Part shown: positions 2 through 13,206 of the stretch, in pieces | Numbering within the stretch: position 1 is the stretch's first letter | Layout of the letters: every line of letters starts with the position of its first letter | DNA from: Thermoproteota archaeon | Lineage (GTDB): Archaea > Korarchaeota > Korarchaeia > Korarchaeales > Korarchaeaceae | Reading direction: 5' to 3' | Length of the DNA: 64,000 nucleotides | Assembly (NCBI GenBank): GCA_027492205.1 | Contig: JAOZFN010000014.1 | Location: 1 to 64,000, forward strand | Notes under the pieces: generated by a model | Told to the model about the DNA's origin: nothing | Databases searched by the model: none | Seen by the model: only the letters and a program-made list of their open reading frames with translations | Position numbers and translations under genes: made by a program

Positions 2-2449
2 ATAAAATCCACAAACCCCTGCGTAGCTGGTGATGCTAGGGTGCTTACGCCCGTAGGATGGCTCCGGGCCTCTGAGATCTATCGACTATCTAAGATGACG
101 GGTCCTGTAAAGGCGGTGGCCGTCGATGGAGACGTCTTGGGCGAAGACGGTGAGCCTCAAGCCTATGAGGCGGAGCTGATAACTACTGAGGGAGATGAGG
201 TCATCTACAGAACTGCCCACGGAGATGAGTTGAGGCTCCTCGTTCCAAAGAGGGTCAGGACTTGGGTCTGGCATGTGGGAAGGAAGCAGGGACTGAGGGT
301 GATCACGGAGGAGGGATACGAATTGACGCTCACCCCGGCACACAAGGTCCTCACGCCGGATGGCTGGATAGAGGCGAAGGATCTCAAGCCTGGGGATAGG
401 ATCAAATTGGCGAGGTTGCACCCCTGGTTCTTGAATGAAGCCTATGAAGGTAGTTACGACTTGGACGAGGATGTGGCCTTCGCGTTGGGTTGGCTGGTTG
501 GTGACGGAACCCTCAACGAGCACTACGTAGCGTGGTTCTTCAGCCACGGAGATAAGGCTGCCGAGGAGAGGGTCAGGAGAGGGATAGAGAAACTCGGGGG
601 CAATCCACTCTCCCACACCTACGTACTGAGCGAGAGCGAGCACAAGGTTCAGTACAACAGGGCGACGACTGTCTACAAGAACGTCATGAAACTGATGGGT
701 CGCACGATGGACAGGAGCAGGGAGAGGCACCTGCCCGATATAGCATGGCGCCTCTCTCCTAAAGCTCTGCTAGCGTTCCTCAGGGGCTTGTTCACGGCAG
801 ACGGGTACGTGGACGCAGACAGGGCGGTGAGGCTGACTAGCGCCAGCTTGGAACTACTGAAGGAGGTACAGGTGCTGCTCACCACCATGGGAATGTACTC
901 AGCCATATACGAGAGGCCCTACGAAGGAGAGTTTCATTACACGACCAAGGATGGAGAAGAGAGGACTTACAGGGCCGATGGGTACTACGAGCTGATAGTT
1001 AAGGGCTACAGCAGAAAGATCTTCAAGGACTTGATAGGATTTGAGAGCATTGAAAAGCTAGAGAAACTTCTCTTAAGAAAGACAAAGAGGGACTCGGTGT
1101 GGGTCACTGTCTCTTCGGTTGAGGATGCCGGGTTAGTGGACTTCTACGACTTCACCGTTCCAACATATCATAACTACATCGCTAACGGTCTGATAAACCA
1201 CAACTGTGGCGAGGAGCCTCTATATCCTTATGAGTCCTGCAATCTGGGAAGCATCAACCTCTACGCCTACGTGAGGATAGACGAAGACACCGGCGCCGCC
1301 GAGTTCGACTGGGAGGCCTACGCGAGGGACGTCAGGCTGGCCCTCCACTTCTTGGACAACGTGATAGACGTGAACAAGTTCCCGCTCCCGGAGATAGAGA
1401 GGCAGACCAAGCTCACAAGGAAGGTCGGGCTGGGCCTGATGGGCCTGGCCGACGTGCTCTTCGCCCTCGGGATCCCCTACCACAGCGAGGAGGGCTTCGA
1501 GTTCATGCGCGTCGTGGCCGAGCACCTCACGTACCACGCCCTCGAGGAGTCGACTCGGCTGGCCTCGGAGAGGGGGACCTTCCCGCTCTACGAGCGCTCA
1601 GGATACGCCAGGGGCGAGTTCCCGGTCGAGGGCTACTACCACCCAGAGTGGTGGACGCTCGACTGGTCAAAGCTGGCCCGGGAGATATCCGAGAGGGGAG
1701 TCAGAAACGCTGAGGTCACGACCATAGCCCCGACGGGCTCGATCTCAATGATAGCCGACGTCTCCTCCGGGATAGAGCCGCAGTTCGCCCTAGTCTACGA
1801 GAGGAGGGTCAGCGTGGGGCAGTTCTTCTACGTCGACAGGGAGTTCGAGCGCCAGCTGAAGAGGCTCGGGCTCTACAGCGAGAGGCTGCTGAAGGAGGTC
1901 GCCGACAACGGCGGGTCGGTTCAGGACATCGAGGAGATCCCGGAGGATCTGAGGAAAGTATTCGTGGTGGCCTACGACGTGCCCTGGTGGGACCACGTAC
2001 GCGCCCAGGCCGAGATAACCAAGTGGGTCTGCGCCGCCGTGAGCAAGACCATCAACATGCCGAACTGGGTCACGGTCGATGACGTGGAGAAGGCCTACCT
2101 GTTCGCCCACAGGCTGGGGCTGAAGGGCCTCACCATATACAGGGACGGGTCGAAGGCGGCCCAGGTGCTCGTGACCCCCTCCCAGAGGAGCGGAGAGTAC
2201 GTCCTGGACGTCTCCAACGAGACCCTAGACATAATGAGGTCCCTCGGCATAGAGCCCCCGCCCCGGCGAAGGGCGCCCCCAGAGCAGGCCCGGGGTCAAC
2301 AAGCGACGTCAGCCGTGTTCAGGCCGCCTCCCAGACCCAGCTCGAACCACTTCGAGGTCTGCCCCGAATGCGGGAGCAAGAGGCTGGTGCACCGCGAGGA
2401 CTGCGTCACCTGCCTGGACTGCGGCTGGTCCGCCTGCGTGGTGACCTGA
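2..2449 (+). CDS. nrdJ: Adenosylcobalamin-dependent (class II) ribonucleotide reductase, C-terminal part, interrupted by an intein
   Basis: Reduces ribonucleotides to deoxyribonucleotides with a cobalamin-derived thiyl radical. The reading frame is open from the window edge (5' end outside). After removing the intein (20-1204) the extein reads ...[23 protein letters not shown], the NPCGE active-site loop of class II enzymes, in which the Cys forms the thiyl radical and Asn/Glu are the other catalytic residues. Further on are the [12 protein letters not shown] segment, the phosphate-binding [10 protein letters not shown] loop near 1730, and a C-terminal zinc-ribbon-like tail with two CxxC pairs (2360-2445), usual for the redox-active tail of this family. 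The cobalamin adenosyltransferase gene follows after 9 bases, so cofactor activation and enzyme are probably cotranscribed. Identification is secure; the missing N-terminal part cannot be judged. Confidence 0.96.
   Translation: [815 protein letters not shown]
20..1204 (+). other. Intein with LAGLIDADG homing endonuclease, inserted in nrdJ before the catalytic Cys
   Basis: A 395-residue protein intron. It begins with the nucleophile Cys ([11 protein letters not shown], block A), has a block B with the TxxH-type motif LTPAHKVLT, two dodecapeptide endonuclease motifs ([11 protein letters not shown] near 485-520 and [11 protein letters not shown] near 775-810), block F ([14 protein letters not shown]) and ends in His-Asn directly before Cys+1 of the extein. 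All residues needed for class 1 splicing and the acidic residues of both LAGLIDADG motifs are present, so it looks active in splicing and probably in homing. Its base composition looks less GC-rich than the flanking extein, which fits horizontal arrival. Boundaries follow from restoring the NPCGE motif. Confidence 0.95.
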
Positions 2450-8075: not shown

Positions 8076-9149
8076 TCAGGGGATTATCTCGGTCGTGTTG
8101 TTGAACCCGGGGTAGTCCACCTCACGCCGGCGGATCACGCCCGCCTGCAGGAGTTCCTCGACCTCGGGCGCGATCCCCAGGACCTCGTCTATGAGGTGCC
8201 TGGTGAGTTCACAGACCTTTCTGAACCCTTCACCCCCCCACATCCTCTCCCTGTATGCGTAGAGGCACCTCCCACCGCAGTACCTGTAGTAGGGACAGGA
8301 CGTGCACGGCTCACCTATGAGAACCGAGTCCCTCAGCTCCTCCGGACCTCGGACCCGCCCCACCCTGCCGACCACCGCCCAGCTCTCCTGCACCGCTATT
8401 GGGCAGGCGAGTATCCTGCCGTCTGTGGAGATCGCGAAGGCGTCCCGGCCGGCGCCGCAGGGCAGCCTGAATCCTCCACCGAAGAGCCTCACCCTCAGCA
8501 CGCCGAGGATCGGCACTATTCCGAGCACCCTGCCCCGGCGGGCCTCATCGATCCAGAGGTCGACGAGCCTGCTCAGGCCCTCCTTGTACCGCCCCGCCCA
8601 ACCGTCGAAGTCCTCCCACCCGTCGCTCCACACCACGTCAAGCTGCCAGTGGACGTGGTCGAACAGCCCAAGCTCCAGGAGGTGCGTCACGTCCCTGTAC
8701 ACATCCCCCCGCTCCGAGAGGGCCATCCGTGCGATCAGATCGCCAGAAAACCCGACTCGCCTGAGCCACTTGGCGGACGTGAGGACGGAATCGTAGACGC
8801 CCCTCCCCCGGTAGAAGTCCGTCACCTCCCTGACGCCGTCGATGGACAGCAGCACGGCGTCGAACCTCCTCCAGTACTCAGGCTCGAGGGACCTCACCGA
8901 GATGCCGTTGGTCTGAATGACGAACCTCCTCGCCCTGACGTTGTCCATCACCATCCTGATGAACTCGGGGTTTAGGAGGGGCTCCCCGCCGTAGAACGCG
9001 ACCACCGCATCTGGATCCGATTCCACCAGCCGCCTGAGGTCCTCGAGCTCGTACTGGACCTCCCAGGGCACTATCGCTGGCGGGAAGCTGCCCCCACAGT
9101 ACTTGCAGCTCAGGTTGCACCGCCCGGTGGTGAGCACGATGTAGAGCAC
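8076..9149 (-). CDS. Radical SAM enzyme with SPASM-type C-terminus, AF1577-like
   Basis: Radical SAM protein of 357 residues. The [4Fe-4S] motif CxxxCxxC is at Cys11, Cys15 and Cys18 (RCNLSCKYCGG); FYGGEPLLNPEF is the usual GGEP SAM-binding loop. A C-terminal cysteine cluster CTSCPYYRYCGGRC plus a later Cys is typical of SPASM auxiliary clusters. The very short N-terminus (MLYIVLTTGRCNLSC) and VPWEVQYELEDL resemble the archaeal AF1577-like family, annotated elsewhere as putative peptide-modifying enzymes; that assignment is from memory. No precursor peptide is recognisable next to it. Start GTG 9149. Confidence 0.88.
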   Translation of the reverse strand: MLYIVLTTGRCNLSCKYCGGSFPPAIVPWEVQYELEDLRRLVESDPDAVVAFYGGEPLLNPEFIRMVMDNVRARRFVIQTNGISVRSLEPEYWRRFDAVLLSIDGVREVTDFYRGRGVYDSVLTSAKWLRRVGFSGDLIARMALSERGDVYRDVTHLLELGLFDHVHWQLDVVWSDGWEDFDGWAGRYKEGLSRLVDLWIDEARRGRVLGIVPILGVLRVRLFGGGFRLPCGAGRDAFAISTDGRILACPIAVQESWAVVGRVGRVRGPEELRDSVLIGEPCTSCPYYRYCGGRCLYAYRERMWGGEGFRKVCELTRHLIDEVLGIAPEVEELLQAGVIRRREVDYPGFNNTTEIIP

Positions 9150-9212
9150 GTCGCCCGGTCCTGTGAGACCCCTATGTTAAACTCTCTCCACACCCAGCGA
9201 GTCTGAAACTCC

Positions 9213-10592
9213 TCATCCGGCGCCGGCCCACAGCCCCGCCTCCTCCCGGATGAACCTCCTGAACGCATCGACGTCGTTCCTCCTGGCCCTGACCGGGGCC
9301 GACGTCACCGCTGACCTTATGGCCATGAGCCTCCTGTCCGGGGCGAGCTCGGGCCTCCTGACGTAGAGGGCTCTCAGCTCTCCGAGGCTCCTCTCCAGGG
9401 GGCGCATGTCGGGCACGTCACACGCGATCTTCAGGGCTTCCGGGACGCACCTCCTGCCCCACGTCTTCTCGATATCGAAGAGGGCGCCGTACCCCTCCTT
9501 GTAGGGGTTGACGGGCCTCCCGTATACAGCCTCGAAGTACTCACTTCTGGTCCGCCCGAACGGGTCCTCGTCCGGCCCCAGGTAGCGGAGGGTCTCCTCG
9601 TCGACGATCGCCTCTCCGAGCGCCGGCCTCAGCTCCTTGAGAACCGCCAGCTCAACCCAGAGGGTGAACCCCTCGTCCACCACGAGGAGGGGGTCCCTCA
9701 CGGCGGACAGCTTCTCCTCTGCCGCCACTCTCTCCACTCCCGAGAGGTTCCTGGCTGCTCTAACGGCTTCTGCGAGGGACCGGCCGGCCCGGGTGTGGGA
9801 GTACACGTAACCGTGCCCCAGGTATTCGTGAGCCAGGTGGGCGACCAGTCTAGCGAACCTCGGGACTAGGGACCCCCTGGCCTCCGGTCGCAGACTGGCC
9901 TCCTCAGGATCGTAGAGGAGGAAGGCCCCGAGGCCGGGCTCTGCGAAGGGCGCGAGGGGGCCATTGAGGGAGCCCCTGGCGGCGGCGTACTCCCGGAGGG
10001 TGAAGTGGACCGGGAACTCTGGAGGCTCCAGACCTAGCCTCTCCCTCGCGGCGTCTCTCATGATCTCTACGAGCGAGTCAAGCTCCCCCGGCTTCAGGTG
10101 TGAGACCGAGGCCAGGAGCGCGAGCTTGGAGATCTCCGCCTCAAGGGATCCGGGCGCCAGGGGCCTGAGTCTCACCACAGACGTGGCGAGCAGGTCCACC
10201 GGGGCGACCCTAGACGCCCCCTCGGTCGGCCTCTCCACTCCGCCCGAGAAGTACAGCTCCGCGACGGCCATAGCCTCTGCCAGGGTGGGCAGCTCCTCTG
10301 GCCGGGCCCCCCTCCCCAGGACCCTTGACTTCACCCTCGAGTAGGCGTCCCTCGCCAGCTCGGACCCCACCTGCCTGCCGAACTGCTGGTAAGCGTGCTT
10401 CGCCAGCTCCTTCAGGAACTCCGCAAGGAAGTAGGCGACCGGGGCCAGGAGGATCCCCTCGGCCAGGGCGTGAGCCCTGGCCGACTCCTCCCTGAGGATC
10501 CCCTCCTCTGCGATTATCGCCCTCCTGACCCTCGCGGGCGCCCCCGGGGTCAGGGGGAGCCTCCTGACGAACTCCTCTGGGTCCTCCCTCAC
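9213..10592 (-). CDS. HEXXH zinc-metallopeptidase-like protein
   Basis: 459 residues, no family recognised, but it carries a textbook zincin motif HEYLGH (His255, Glu256, His260) preceded by a hydrophobic helix ARLVAHLA, and 47 residues later DEGFTLWVE, where Glu307 is a reasonable third zinc ligand (gluzincin arrangement). The first 130 residues are mostly helical. No signal peptide is seen, so it is probably cytoplasmic. It overlaps the coiled-coil winged-helix gene by 4 bases (GTGA), the last of a three-gene operon with the membrane propeller regulator. A regulated protease is the inference; the substrate is unknown. Confidence 0.65.
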   Translation of the reverse strand: MREDPEEFVRRLPLTPGAPARVRRAIIAEEGILREESARAHALAEGILLAPVAYFLAEFLKELAKHAYQQFGRQVGSELARDAYSRVKSRVLGRGARPEELPTLAEAMAVAELYFSGGVERPTEGASRVAPVDLLATSVVRLRPLAPGSLEAEISKLALLASVSHLKPGELDSLVEIMRDAARERLGLEPPEFPVHFTLREYAAARGSLNGPLAPFAEPGLGAFLLYDPEEASLRPEARGSLVPRFARLVAHLAHEYLGHGYVYSHTRAGRSLAEAVRAARNLSGVERVAAEEKLSAVRDPLLVVDEGFTLWVELAVLKELRPALGEAIVDEETLRYLGPDEDPFGRTRSEYFEAVYGRPVNPYKEGYGALFDIEKTWGRRCVPEALKIACDVPDMRPLERSLGELRALYVRRPELAPDRRLMAIRSAVTSAPVRARRNDVDAFRRFIREEAGLWAGAG

Positions 10593-11044
10593 GCCCCTCC
10601 CTCCACCAGTATCAGGGCCCCCTTCGACGCGAGGGACCTGGCCGCCGCCATCACGGTCTCGCGAGGCAGGCCCAGCTCCCTGGAGGCCTCTTCCAGGTCG
10701 AACCAGCCGCCGGTCCTGTGGAGGTACTCCAGGAGCCTCCTCTCGGCCTCCGTCGCGCTGACGCCTGAAAGTCTCTCCACCTCCTTGGTGAGTTCCTCCA
10801 CAATCTTCCTGAGCCTCTCAAGCTCGCGCTCGCAGTCCCCCGCCGAAGCCACTCGCCCGGCGGCCTGCTTATTCTCCGCCGGGGGCCGACCGCCAGGTGC
10901 CCGCTCCTCCCTCAGCCTCTGGAGTTCAGCCTCTAGCTGAGCGACCTTCTCCCCGAGCTCGGCGACTTGGCTCTCCAGCTCCTTGACCCTCCTCCTATAC
11001 CTGTCCAGGAGGGCGGCAACTGTGGGAGGTAGTCGATAGCTCAG
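10589..11044 (-). CDS. Coiled-coil plus winged-helix protein, apparent CTG start
   Basis: Small DNA-binding-type protein. The C-terminal part (TEAERRLLEYLHRTGGWFDLEEASRELGLPRETV, then AAARSLASKGALILVEG) is a winged helix. The first standard start is GTG 10852 (87 residues), but the frame is open upstream to 11048 and encodes an excellent heptad coiled coil (LLDRYRRRVKELESQ, VAELGEKVAQLEAELQRL). The only possible upstream start is CTG at 11044, which overlaps the previous stop as CTGA and is preceded by AGGAGGTG with six bases between. I therefore call a 151-residue protein. It sits between the membrane regulator and the HEXXH gene, overlapping both. Confidence 0.7.
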   Translation of the reverse strand: MSYRLPPTVAALLDRYRRRVKELESQVAELGEKVAQLEAELQRLREERAPGGRPPAENKQAAGRVASAGDCERELERLRKIVEELTKEVERLSGVSATEAERRLLEYLHRTGGWFDLEEASRELGLPRETVMAAARSLASKGALILVEGGA

Positions 11045-13140
11045 ATCTCACACCTCCTCAAGGCCCCCTCATCCTTCAGCGCCTCTAAAACCTTCTTAGC
11101 CAACCGTGGCGAGATCCCGAGGGCAGAGGCCAGCTCGGCGGGAGTGACCCTTCCTCCCCGGTCCAGGGCCACCTCCAAGGCTCGGACCTTCAGCTCTTCG
11201 ATCCTGGAGGCCCTCGACCTTAGGGCGAATGCGGCCAGCCCCGTACCCGCGAGGGCGGCCAGCAGGACCTTCATCACGGCACCCACCGTCGATCCCGGGA
11301 CCTCCACGACCAGCTCCCGAGAGGCTGCCGGGGACCCCGCCACGATCAAGGTCACCGTCAGCCTGTGTGTCCCCTTCTCCAAGCCCAGCTCCGCCCTGAA
11401 GGGCTCAATCCGGCCTGTTATGGTGATTGGAATCGTAGTCAGAGTCTCTCCGAGTTCCGAGACCTGCACCTGGGCTTCGACGGGGAGATGTGGGCTGGGG
11501 GGAGGGTCAAGCCCCACGACCCCAGTGAGGGTGACCTTGCCAGGCCCTGTAGACGAGTTGACGTCGAGGGTGGCGGAGTAGACCCACACTCTCGCCTCGG
11601 CATCGGCGAGCGCCTCGCCGTCGTACACAAGCTCTATCGACAGCTCGTGGACGCCGGGCTCGAGTTCGAGCTGAACGTTCCTCTCGGAGATCCCAGAGCT
11701 TATGTTCCACCGCTCCTCGAGCAGGACTCGACCTGACTCCGTCACAACCAGCTCGGCGGGGAGCGGCCACCTGGGATCCGGCGCCGGGGCGAGCTCGGCC
11801 CTGACACTCAGTGAGTCCGATCCAAAGCCGAGGACGGAGAGAGAGGCGCTCTCAGGGGGAGGGGGGAGGACCTCGGCCTCAACCACCTGGGAGGCCACCT
11901 CCTCGCCTCCTACGCTGGCCCTGAGGGTGAGGATGTGGTGCCCCGGCCTGAGGGGTGCGTTGAGGGGTATAGCGAGGGAGCCGCCGGTCCCGGACAGGGC
12001 GGCATCCACGCTCGCCAGCTCCTCGCCCCCCTCTAGAAGGCTGACCCGCACCCTCACCGGCTCCGGGAGGCTGGGGCTGACCGAGATGCCCACCGTAACG
12101 TTGGACCCGTACCTCGACACCCTCACCTCCGAGATGGAGACGGTCGGGTTCACCTTGACGAGGACGCGGACGCTCCAGGTGCCGACCGCCAGGGCAGACG
12201 AGTCCGGGCTCCACGCGAGCGAGCCGACCGCCTCACCCAGCGTGGCGGAGAGCACCTCCGCCCCGGTCGGCGTCACGACCACCAGCTCGCCCCCTAGGCC
12301 GCCGACGGCCAGCAGGGAGCCGTCAGGGGCCCACTCAACCTCGGTTACAGCCGAGCCGATGGAGTCCGACCAGACCTCCTCTCCGGAGGGGGTGACGACC
12401 CGCACGACGCCGTCCTCGGATCCCACCGCCAGCAGGTCTGTGGGCCCCCAGCCGAGGTCCTCAATGGCGCCCGAAGACAGCTTCAGCAGGAGCACATCCT
12501 CCTCTCTCACCACAGCCACCATCCCGGCGGTCGATCCGGCTGCGAGGAGGCCGCTCCTCGAGACGGACAGGCAGGTGACCGGGGAGTCGAGCTTCGCGAT
12601 CCTGCTGACGTTATCCCCGACTAGGAGAACGTCGCTGCCCACGGAGGCGACCGACCCGTTTCCCACCAGGGCGACGTGTGAGACGGTCCCGTTGAGCCCG
12701 ACCCTCCCCACGACGTTGCCCGACGAGTCGAGGATCACCAACTCTGAGCCCGCGGCCGCCGCTATGGTACCGGGGCCAGCGGCCAGGTCCGAGACGGGCG
12801 CCGGCAGCTGGAGGGACCACGCCCACTCCCCTGACCGCGAGTAGGCCCTGACGAGACCAGACGAGGTCGATGCCACGATCAGGGAGTCGATCCAGGCAAC
12901 TGAGGTGACGGTGGACCCGAGCCCCCTCGTCCAGAGACCAGATCCCGAACCGCCGAACAGGAAGAGGGACCCGGTCCCCGTGCCGGCGGCCAGCCCCTCG
13001 CCGTCGGGACTCCACGCCAGCGCTTCGACTGAACCCCAGGCGCTCTTGCTCCACGACTCCTCCAGCGTCACTGGGCCCGCTGAGAGCAGGGCAGGCGCGA
13101 TCAGTAGCAGCGTCGTGAGCGCGGCGGCCGCCTTCCTCAT
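11041..13140 (-). CDS. Membrane-anchored regulator: exported beta-propeller, TM helix, cytoplasmic winged helix
   Basis: 699 residues. Signal peptide (KAAAALTTLLLIAPALLSAG) is followed by a WD40-like propeller of seven or eight repeats, each with a VxxLAWSPDGxxLAxGxxDG-type pattern (about 30-330), then Ig-like beta repeats (about 335-600), one membrane helix (GAVMKVLLAALAGTGLAAF, about 610-630) and a short cytoplasmic winged helix (GRVTPAELASALGISPRLAKKVLEALKDEGALR). The topology places a sensor outside and a DNA-binding domain inside. Its last codons carry the ribosome site for the next gene, which it overlaps. Architecture is clear; function as a signal-transducing transcription factor is inferred. 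Confidence 0.75.
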   Translation of the reverse strand: MRKAAAALTTLLLIAPALLSAGPVTLEESWSKSAWGSVEALAWSPDGEGLAAGTGTGSLFLFGGSGSGLWTRGLGSTVTSVAWIDSLIVASTSSGLVRAYSRSGEWAWSLQLPAPVSDLAAGPGTIAAAAGSELVILDSSGNVVGRVGLNGTVSHVALVGNGSVASVGSDVLLVGDNVSRIAKLDSPVTCLSVSRSGLLAAGSTAGMVAVVREEDVLLLKLSSGAIEDLGWGPTDLLAVGSEDGVVRVVTPSGEEVWSDSIGSAVTEVEWAPDGSLLAVGGLGGELVVVTPTGAEVLSATLGEAVGSLAWSPDSSALAVGTWSVRVLVKVNPTVSISEVRVSRYGSNVTVGISVSPSLPEPVRVRVSLLEGGEELASVDAALSGTGGSLAIPLNAPLRPGHHILTLRASVGGEEVASQVVEAEVLPPPPESASLSVLGFGSDSLSVRAELAPAPDPRWPLPAELVVTESGRVLLEERWNISSGISERNVQLELEPGVHELSIELVYDGEALADAEARVWVYSATLDVNSSTGPGKVTLTGVVGLDPPPSPHLPVEAQVQVSELGETLTTIPITITGRIEPFRAELGLEKGTHRLTVTLIVAGSPAASRELVVEVPGSTVGAVMKVLLAALAGTGLAAFALRSRASRIEELKVRALEVALDRGGRVTPAELASALGISPRLAKKVLEALKDEGALRRCEI

Positions 13141-13206
13141 CGGGCCACCCAGAGCTTCCCCATGTTAAGGGTTATCCGGCGATGGCCTTCGGATCTGGGC
13201 CAGAGA

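Follow-up and report, generated by a model that had tools for sequence, protein, structure and literature searches.

An operon of three genes on a 64,000-nucleotide stretch of the genome of a Thermoproteota archaeon (contig JAOZFN010000014.1, positions 1 to 64,000; hereafter the window) encodes, as judged by sequence comparison, a divergent homologue of SpoVR. The homology of this protein, P3 (the product of gene 3; P1 and P2 are the products of genes 1 and 2), covers the core that runs from the EG motif to the NPY motif of SpoVR, and P3 is plausibly a metallo-hydrolase. The operon is real, rare, and conserved across two genera. It is not categorically new; its main value lies in the link to SpoVR and in a testable metal-site hypothesis. 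SpoVR is widespread in bacteria and has long been known by name, and we know of no enzymatic activity or assigned biochemical function for it. A histidine-glutamate (HE) pair in P3 suggests a concrete hypothesis for the SpoVR core, namely a metal site made of two histidines and one glutamate.

P3 as a divergent relative of SpoVR

SpoVR sequences were drawn from E. coli, plasmid records, and two archaeal genomes, and a hidden Markov model was built from eight of them. This model matched P3 from a different genus of the same family (genome G004) with an E value of 5.5e-8, P3 of the sister genome (G001) with 7.7e-5, and P3 of the window genome (G000, 1.94 Mb) with 8.5e-4, all above real and shuffled decoys. 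Alignment of P3 and SpoVR profiles by hhalign gave a probability of 90, an E value of 1.6e-6, and a score of 55.8, compared with a maximum of 22.6 over 150 column shuffles and 16.0 for a reversed profile. The controls (the M1 aminopeptidase PepN and eight unrelated single sequences) scored 12–22, and two single SpoVR sequences scored 34–35. For P3 of G004, SpoVR was the sole family reported by Pfam at E up to 10 (E 0.074; 0.045 for the C-terminal half) and one of two matches in NCBIfam (E 0.14). We call P3 SpoVR-like rather than SpoVR because its match to PF04293 (12.2–12.9 bits in G004) lies below the gathering cut-off of 27 bits, and because it lacks PrkA and YeaH partners: both are missing from the locus, and no PrkA was found in 29 genomes of the phylum. 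Nor was any canonical SpoVR found in the phylum.

P3 and SpoVR share three collinear motifs: AHxxxGH (or a 4-spaced form, HVxxH), [NDH]EG[WFC], and [NL]PYxxG. The first reads AHEYLGHGYVY in P3 and AHACYGHNSFF in YcgB, and an archaeal SpoVR of intermediate kind (G177) carries IIHEGFATFVEE, which is near VVDEGFTLWVEL of P3. In a MAFFT alignment of 11 sequences from both groups, the two histidines and the glutamate of EG were invariant, with a partly ambiguous register of HxxxGH. The glutamate that follows the first histidine is present in P3 and not in canonical SpoVR. Both HExxGH and DEGF are kept in all three P3 orthologues, as is the HE pair, while the two residues after it vary (HEYLGH, HEAAGH). 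The original prediction had named HEYLGH and DEGF, and both are indeed present; its description of P3 as an HEXXH protein has to be corrected, since the motif is of the HExxGH (HExxxH) type.

Several observations weigh against the assignment to SpoVR. A Pfam scan of the window P3 alone reports no SpoVR, YcgB alone scores 21.6 in the profile comparison and is thus at background, and the alignment of P3 with SpoVR carries statistical weight over only about 70–80 residues. The distance from HxxxGH to EG is 47 residues in P3 and about 95–170 in SpoVR. An AlphaFold2 model of P3 from three sequences had a predicted local distance difference test (pLDDT) score of 39.7, which is too low to show or refute a zincin fold. 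A PDB sequence search with P3 returned nothing meaningful, and no structure of a SpoVR turned up there. Pfam peptidase models did not match P3, a tblastn search of plasmids gave nothing above chance, and scans against PHROGs and PADLOC assigned P3 to no defence family and returned just one short, weak match without known function. Among other candidates, dipeptidyl peptidase III (M49) and MATCAP were rejected for want of a Pfam match at E up to 10; M1 likewise had no Pfam match, and its PepN control was at background in the profile comparison. An apparent SpoVR match in G069 (L087) proved to be an ATPase-like protein and was put down to chance.

A conserved operon known from the literature comprises prkA, a VWA gene, and a spoVR-like gene; the VWA and spoVR-like genes were reported as lacking functional characterisation (PMC3188799). 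We also noted archaeal SpoVRs of 732–734 amino acids (aa), encoded in PrkA-PrkA-YeaH-SpoVR operons, whose NPY motif is followed by a large insertion (L094:5681-7879, L068-L070).

A rare operon of three overlapping genes

The three genes run in one direction on the minus strand (Table 1), and their reading frames overlap, as originally predicted. The CTG start of gene 2 shares bases with the TGA stop of gene 1, and a GTGA is common to the stop of gene 2 and the start of gene 3. Translation of P2 probably begins at CTG 11044 because the ATG of the G004 orthologue aligns there (LSYRLP in the window, MTYRLP in G004) and because GGAGGTG lies 6 nucleotides (nt) upstream, in the window and the sister genome alike. 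The shorter P2 reading frame, 10589-10852, is a truncation that arose because the list of open reading frames (ORFs) takes only ATG, GTG, and TTG starts. Relative to the sister genome, all three genes are under purifying selection, with ratios of nonsynonymous to synonymous substitution of 0.33 for P1 (part only), 0.56 for P2, and 0.21 for P3.

P3 was found in 3 of 61 archaeal genomes and, by profile search, in 3 of 394, where a fourth match was short and weak (E 0.002). P2 is restricted to the same three genomes, and so are full-length-type matches of P1. Gene order and overlaps are kept in G004; the sister genome has the same gene order, with P1 broken off by a contig end. Homologues thus occur together rather than scattered, in line with the original prediction. 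The rarity of the operon limits its general weight.

The neighbours of the operon are a radical SAM gene, a GNAT gene, or, in G004, a KaiC-like ATPase gene. Downstream of gene 3, the window and the sister genome carry the radical SAM/SPASM gene (8076-9149 of the window, minus strand; TIGR04084, E 2e-151), which is a core gene of the phylum (23 of 29 genomes) and is located elsewhere in G004; there, a two-domain KaiC-like ATPase lies directly 3' of gene 3 (L007:10838-12253, plus strand). Since the downstream gene differs between genera and the radical SAM gene is elsewhere in G004, the module consists of three genes. The sequence TTAACATRGGG has only two sites in the whole genome, one at the TATA-like position of gene 1 (Table 1) and one at 9170-9180 (minus strand), 31 nt before the radical SAM gene. 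We did not take this possible co-regulation into the module because the second site has one mismatch in the sister genome and the genes are about 130 kb apart in G004. Elsewhere in the window, the ORF at 116-2449 (plus strand) has an intein-like stretch at its start; the sister copy (L006:3-965) reads ribonucleotide-reductase-like.

Domains of P1 and P2

P2 was predicted to consist of a coiled coil and a winged helix. The AlphaFold2 model (three sequences, pLDDT 74) has a helix at residues 7–48, a disordered linker, a second helix at 68–93, and a tri-helical domain at 97–140 with no sheet; the winged helix has no wing, and the protein ends after one strand at most. Four comparisons suggest that this domain is likely, although not certainly, of the CdvB type. 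The NCBIfam model of CdvB (NF041008) matches P2 with an E value of 2e-6, covering model positions 212–258 of 260 only, and a PDB sequence search matches 2xvc (CdvB from Sulfolobus) at E 4.8e-4. The same structure ranks first in Foldseek with a probability of 1.00, a root-mean-square deviation of 1.4 Å, and a target TM score of 0.74, but an E value of 0.053. Lastly, a P2 profile run against 297 archaeal genomes found, beyond the orthologues and one coiled-coil match, a CdvB of 258 aa (E 5.8e-7) that sits in an apparent CdvA-CdvB-CdvC operon. The domain is acidic (charge −2), as is that of CdvB (−2 to −3). The assignment stays short of certain because the generic helix-turn-helix (HTH) models AbiEi_4, PheRS_DBD1, and HTH_24 also match in Pfam, and winged helices are all alike, which counts against it. 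P2 itself was rejected as a member of CdvB/ESCRT-III: it has no ESCRT-III core domain, as the partial coverage of NF041008 also indicates.

The winged helix of CdvB serves for peptide docking rather than DNA binding: it binds E3B of CdvA, a segment by which the fold may be completed (PMC12909875). A simple pattern search found no E3B-like peptide in P1, P2, or P3, and none of the 29 genomes of the phylum had a CdvB above cut-off. If genomes that lack CdvB carry a CdvB-type winged helix joined to a coiled coil, this would point to more archaeal winged-helix adaptors outside cell division. In a separate observation, the gene that comes after PspA/IM30 (ESCRT-III superfamily; PF04012, E 2.5e-33) codes for a small membrane protein of two helices that has a winged helix at its C-terminus (Table 1), and in G017 the winged helix of the PspA-adjacent protein matches CdvB (NF041008, E 3.1e-4) and EAP30/Vps36. 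An association of PspA with winged-helix proteins has already been noted (PMC10936438).

The N-terminus of P1 resembles a signal peptide, and immunoglobulin (Ig)-like repeats were read from its sequence. Beyond the membrane helix, the predicted cytoplasmic tail matches HTH_24 with E values of 0.002 (window) and 0.0012 (G004); in all three orthologues it stops after helix 3, with no wing. Among PDB entries, the tail matches ribosomal protein eS25 best, and it weakly resembles TFE and LRP domains. Its charge is +2 for the window protein and −2 for that of G004. A 1-nt difference near 11055-11070, either real or a sequencing error, makes the last residues RRCEI in the window and EEV in the sister genome. 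Propeller-membrane paralogues of P1 without an HTH are common in the phylum, and an HTH fused to such a protein was seen in this operon only. Two more proteins of the P1 type (propeller, Ig-like repeats, and membrane helix, without an HTH) are encoded at L056:7292-13538 (minus strand). Of the earlier description of P1 as an outside propeller with an inside winged helix, the propeller, the membrane helix, and the C-terminal HTH stood and the wing did not; for P2, the coiled coil and winged helix were borne out, again minus the wing, and the start was moved.

Table 1. Positions of the operon, its domains and motifs, and one further locus. Coordinates are those of the window unless a locus is named.
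Feature	Position	Strand	Remarks
TATA-like position, TTAACATGGGG	13158–13168	minus	Probable promoter element, 28 nt upstream of the gene 1 ATG; copy of TTAACATRGGG
Gene 1 (P1, 699 aa)	11041–13140	minus	Exported WD40-like propeller, Ig-like repeats, membrane helix, wingless HTH tail
P1 propeller, about residues 34–323	12172–13041	minus	Predicted outside; Pfam ANAPC4_WD40, E 7.7e-15, and other propeller models
P1 membrane helix, about residues 617–640	11221–11292	minus	Hydropathy (helix near residues 610–640) and sequence; positive residues on the C-terminal side
P1 tri-helical HTH without wing, residues 646–699	11041–11205	minus	Predicted cytoplasmic; HTH_24
Gene 2 (P2, 151 aa, CTG start)	10589–11044	minus	Coiled coil and CdvB-type winged helix (likely)
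P2 coiled-coil helices, residues 7–48 and 68–93, with linker between	10766–11026	minus	AlphaFold2 model, pLDDT 74
P2 CdvB-type 'broken' winged helix (likely), residues 97–148	10601–10756	minus	NF041008, 2xvc, Foldseek, archaeal profile search
Gene 3 (P3, 459 aa)	9213–10592	minus	Divergent SpoVR-like, probable metallo-hydrolase
HEYLGH, residues 255–260	9813–9830	minus	Aligned to HxxxGH of SpoVR
DEGF, residues 306–309	9666–9677	minus	Aligned to NEGW of SpoVR; E307 is the candidate third metal ligand
NPYKEGY, residues 362–368	9489–9509	minus	Aligned to NPYxxG of SpoVR
PspA and winged-helix membrane protein pair	L055:3868-4996 (G000:C16), L054:3756-4895, L053:5303-6278

Possible function and relation to known systems

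We tentatively read the operon as a membrane-tethered receptor-adaptor-hydrolase module, and give this reading a little less than an even chance. It is favored because gene order and overlaps are kept in two genera and P2 and P3 occur only there, together with the SpoVR relation of P3 and the CdvB-like winged helix of P2. On the outside of the cell, the propeller and Ig-like repeats of P1 would bind a ligand, some cargo, or a component of the envelope, with the short wingless HTH predicted to lie inside. P2 may act as a cytoplasmic coiled-coil adaptor whose winged helix engages a partner either by completing a fold or through a contact between helices, by analogy with the docking of CdvB to CdvA, and it might bridge P1 and P3, thereby bringing P3 to the membrane under the control of P1. 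In P3, H255, H260, and E307 would probably serve as metal ligands and E256 as a putative general base, and P3 could cleave, close to the membrane, a protein or peptide recruited by P1 and P2. Points against this reading are that contact between P1, P2, and P3 is without direct evidence, that the model of P3 showed no zincin fold, and the limits of the SpoVR and CdvB assignments given above. We consider it doubtful that the operon is a receptor-controlled SpoVR-type metallopeptidase in the full sense, with P3 as a catalytically equipped form of SpoVR, P2 as an ESCRT-II-like adaptor of coiled coil and CdvB-type winged helix, and P1 as an exported propeller-Ig receptor; if so, SpoVR itself would be a zincin-like, often base-less metalloprotein.

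The original prediction had placed signal reception, DNA binding, and proteolysis in one pathway. A single pathway is plausible because genes 2 and 3 are confined to three genomes, each of which arranges them identically beside gene 1, and its proteolytic step agrees with a plausible metallo-hydrolase that is now tied to SpoVR. DNA binding is not supported and is doubtful: both HTH domains are wingless, the P2 domain is acidic, and the P1 tail is positively charged in one genus and negatively in the other; neither P1 nor P2 thus holds a complete winged helix with a basic recognition surface. For the same reasons, a signalling regulator, in which P1 and/or P2 would bind DNA and P3 would free or destroy a regulator in the manner of regulated proteolysis, seems to us unlikely. 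The HTH and winged-helix domains of P1 and P2, the weak matches of DNA-binding winged-helix models, and the weak likeness of the P1 tail to TFE and LRP domains speak for such a regulator, whereas the best match of the P2 domain is CdvB and that of the P1 tail is eS25. A reduced or remodelled sorting module of the ESCRT-II/adaptin-like kind is quite unlikely. Here, P1 would be a propeller-Ig cargo receptor, P2 a coiled-coil-winged-helix part acting with PspA, and P3 a processor of cargo. The CdvB-type domain of P2, the PspA of the window genome, and the Halo_adaptin loci, which hold propeller and Ig-like proteins together with the coiled-coil-winged-helix protein arCOG11741 (PMC10936438), are consistent with it. 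However, Vps4 and ESCRT-III genes are absent from the locus (no genome-wide search for Vps4 was made), no match exceeds the CdvB cut-off in 29 genomes of the phylum, and propeller-membrane proteins without an HTH are common in the phylum.

Two further alternatives concern P3 itself. It might be a non-enzymatic metal-binding or inactive SpoVR-like scaffold, with the operon serving as an envelope structure or stress module; the HE pair is absent from canonical SpoVR, which to our knowledge has no known enzymatic activity, and P3 matches no peptidase model. Nevertheless, HE is kept in all three orthologues while the next two residues vary, and we hold a scaffold to be rather improbable. That P3 is a zincin of another family merely resembling SpoVR, such as M49 (HEXXGH) or MATCAP/DUF1704 (HExxxH), is very unlikely: the motif spacing is identical, but neither Pfam model was reported at E up to 10 whereas SpoVR was, and the NPY motif is common to P3 and SpoVR.

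We know of no described system with exactly this set of genes, as was originally claimed, although the parts have known relatives. The layout of P1 is like that of membrane-anchored one-component regulators (outside sensor, membrane helix, inside winged HTH); unlike these, it carries an HTH that lacks both a wing and a conserved basic surface. With dipeptidyl peptidase III and MATCAP/DUF1704, P3 shares the HExxGH/HExxxH spacing and a downstream glutamate, but no family match. The archaeal Halo_adaptin ESCRT loci encode 'adaptin-like' proteins of WD40/PQQ-like propellers and Ig-like repeats and a coiled-coil-winged-helix protein (Makarova 2024, PMC10936438), which P1 and P2 respectively resemble; no counterpart of P3 is named for them. 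Unlike those loci, ours has no Vps4-like ATPase, ESCRT-III/PspA, or CetZ, and because Vps4 and ESCRT-III are missing we do not regard it as a Halo_adaptin ESCRT locus. Residues 97–148 of P2 resemble the broken winged helix of Sulfolobus CdvB in sequence and predicted fold, both being acidic and the model wingless, and P2 has a coiled coil where CdvB has the ESCRT-III domain. SpoVR (PF04293; YcgB in E. coli, SpoVR in B. subtilis) is the third gene of prkA-yeaH-spoVR operons. Unlike SpoVR, P3 has HE in the first motif, an N-terminal helical part of its own, and no PrkA or YeaH partner, and the C-terminal part of SpoVR and a large portion of the region separating motifs 1 and 2 are absent from it; like SpoVR, it carries AHxxxGH, [VI][VM][ND]EG[WF], and NPYxxG[FY]...DIE in collinear order.

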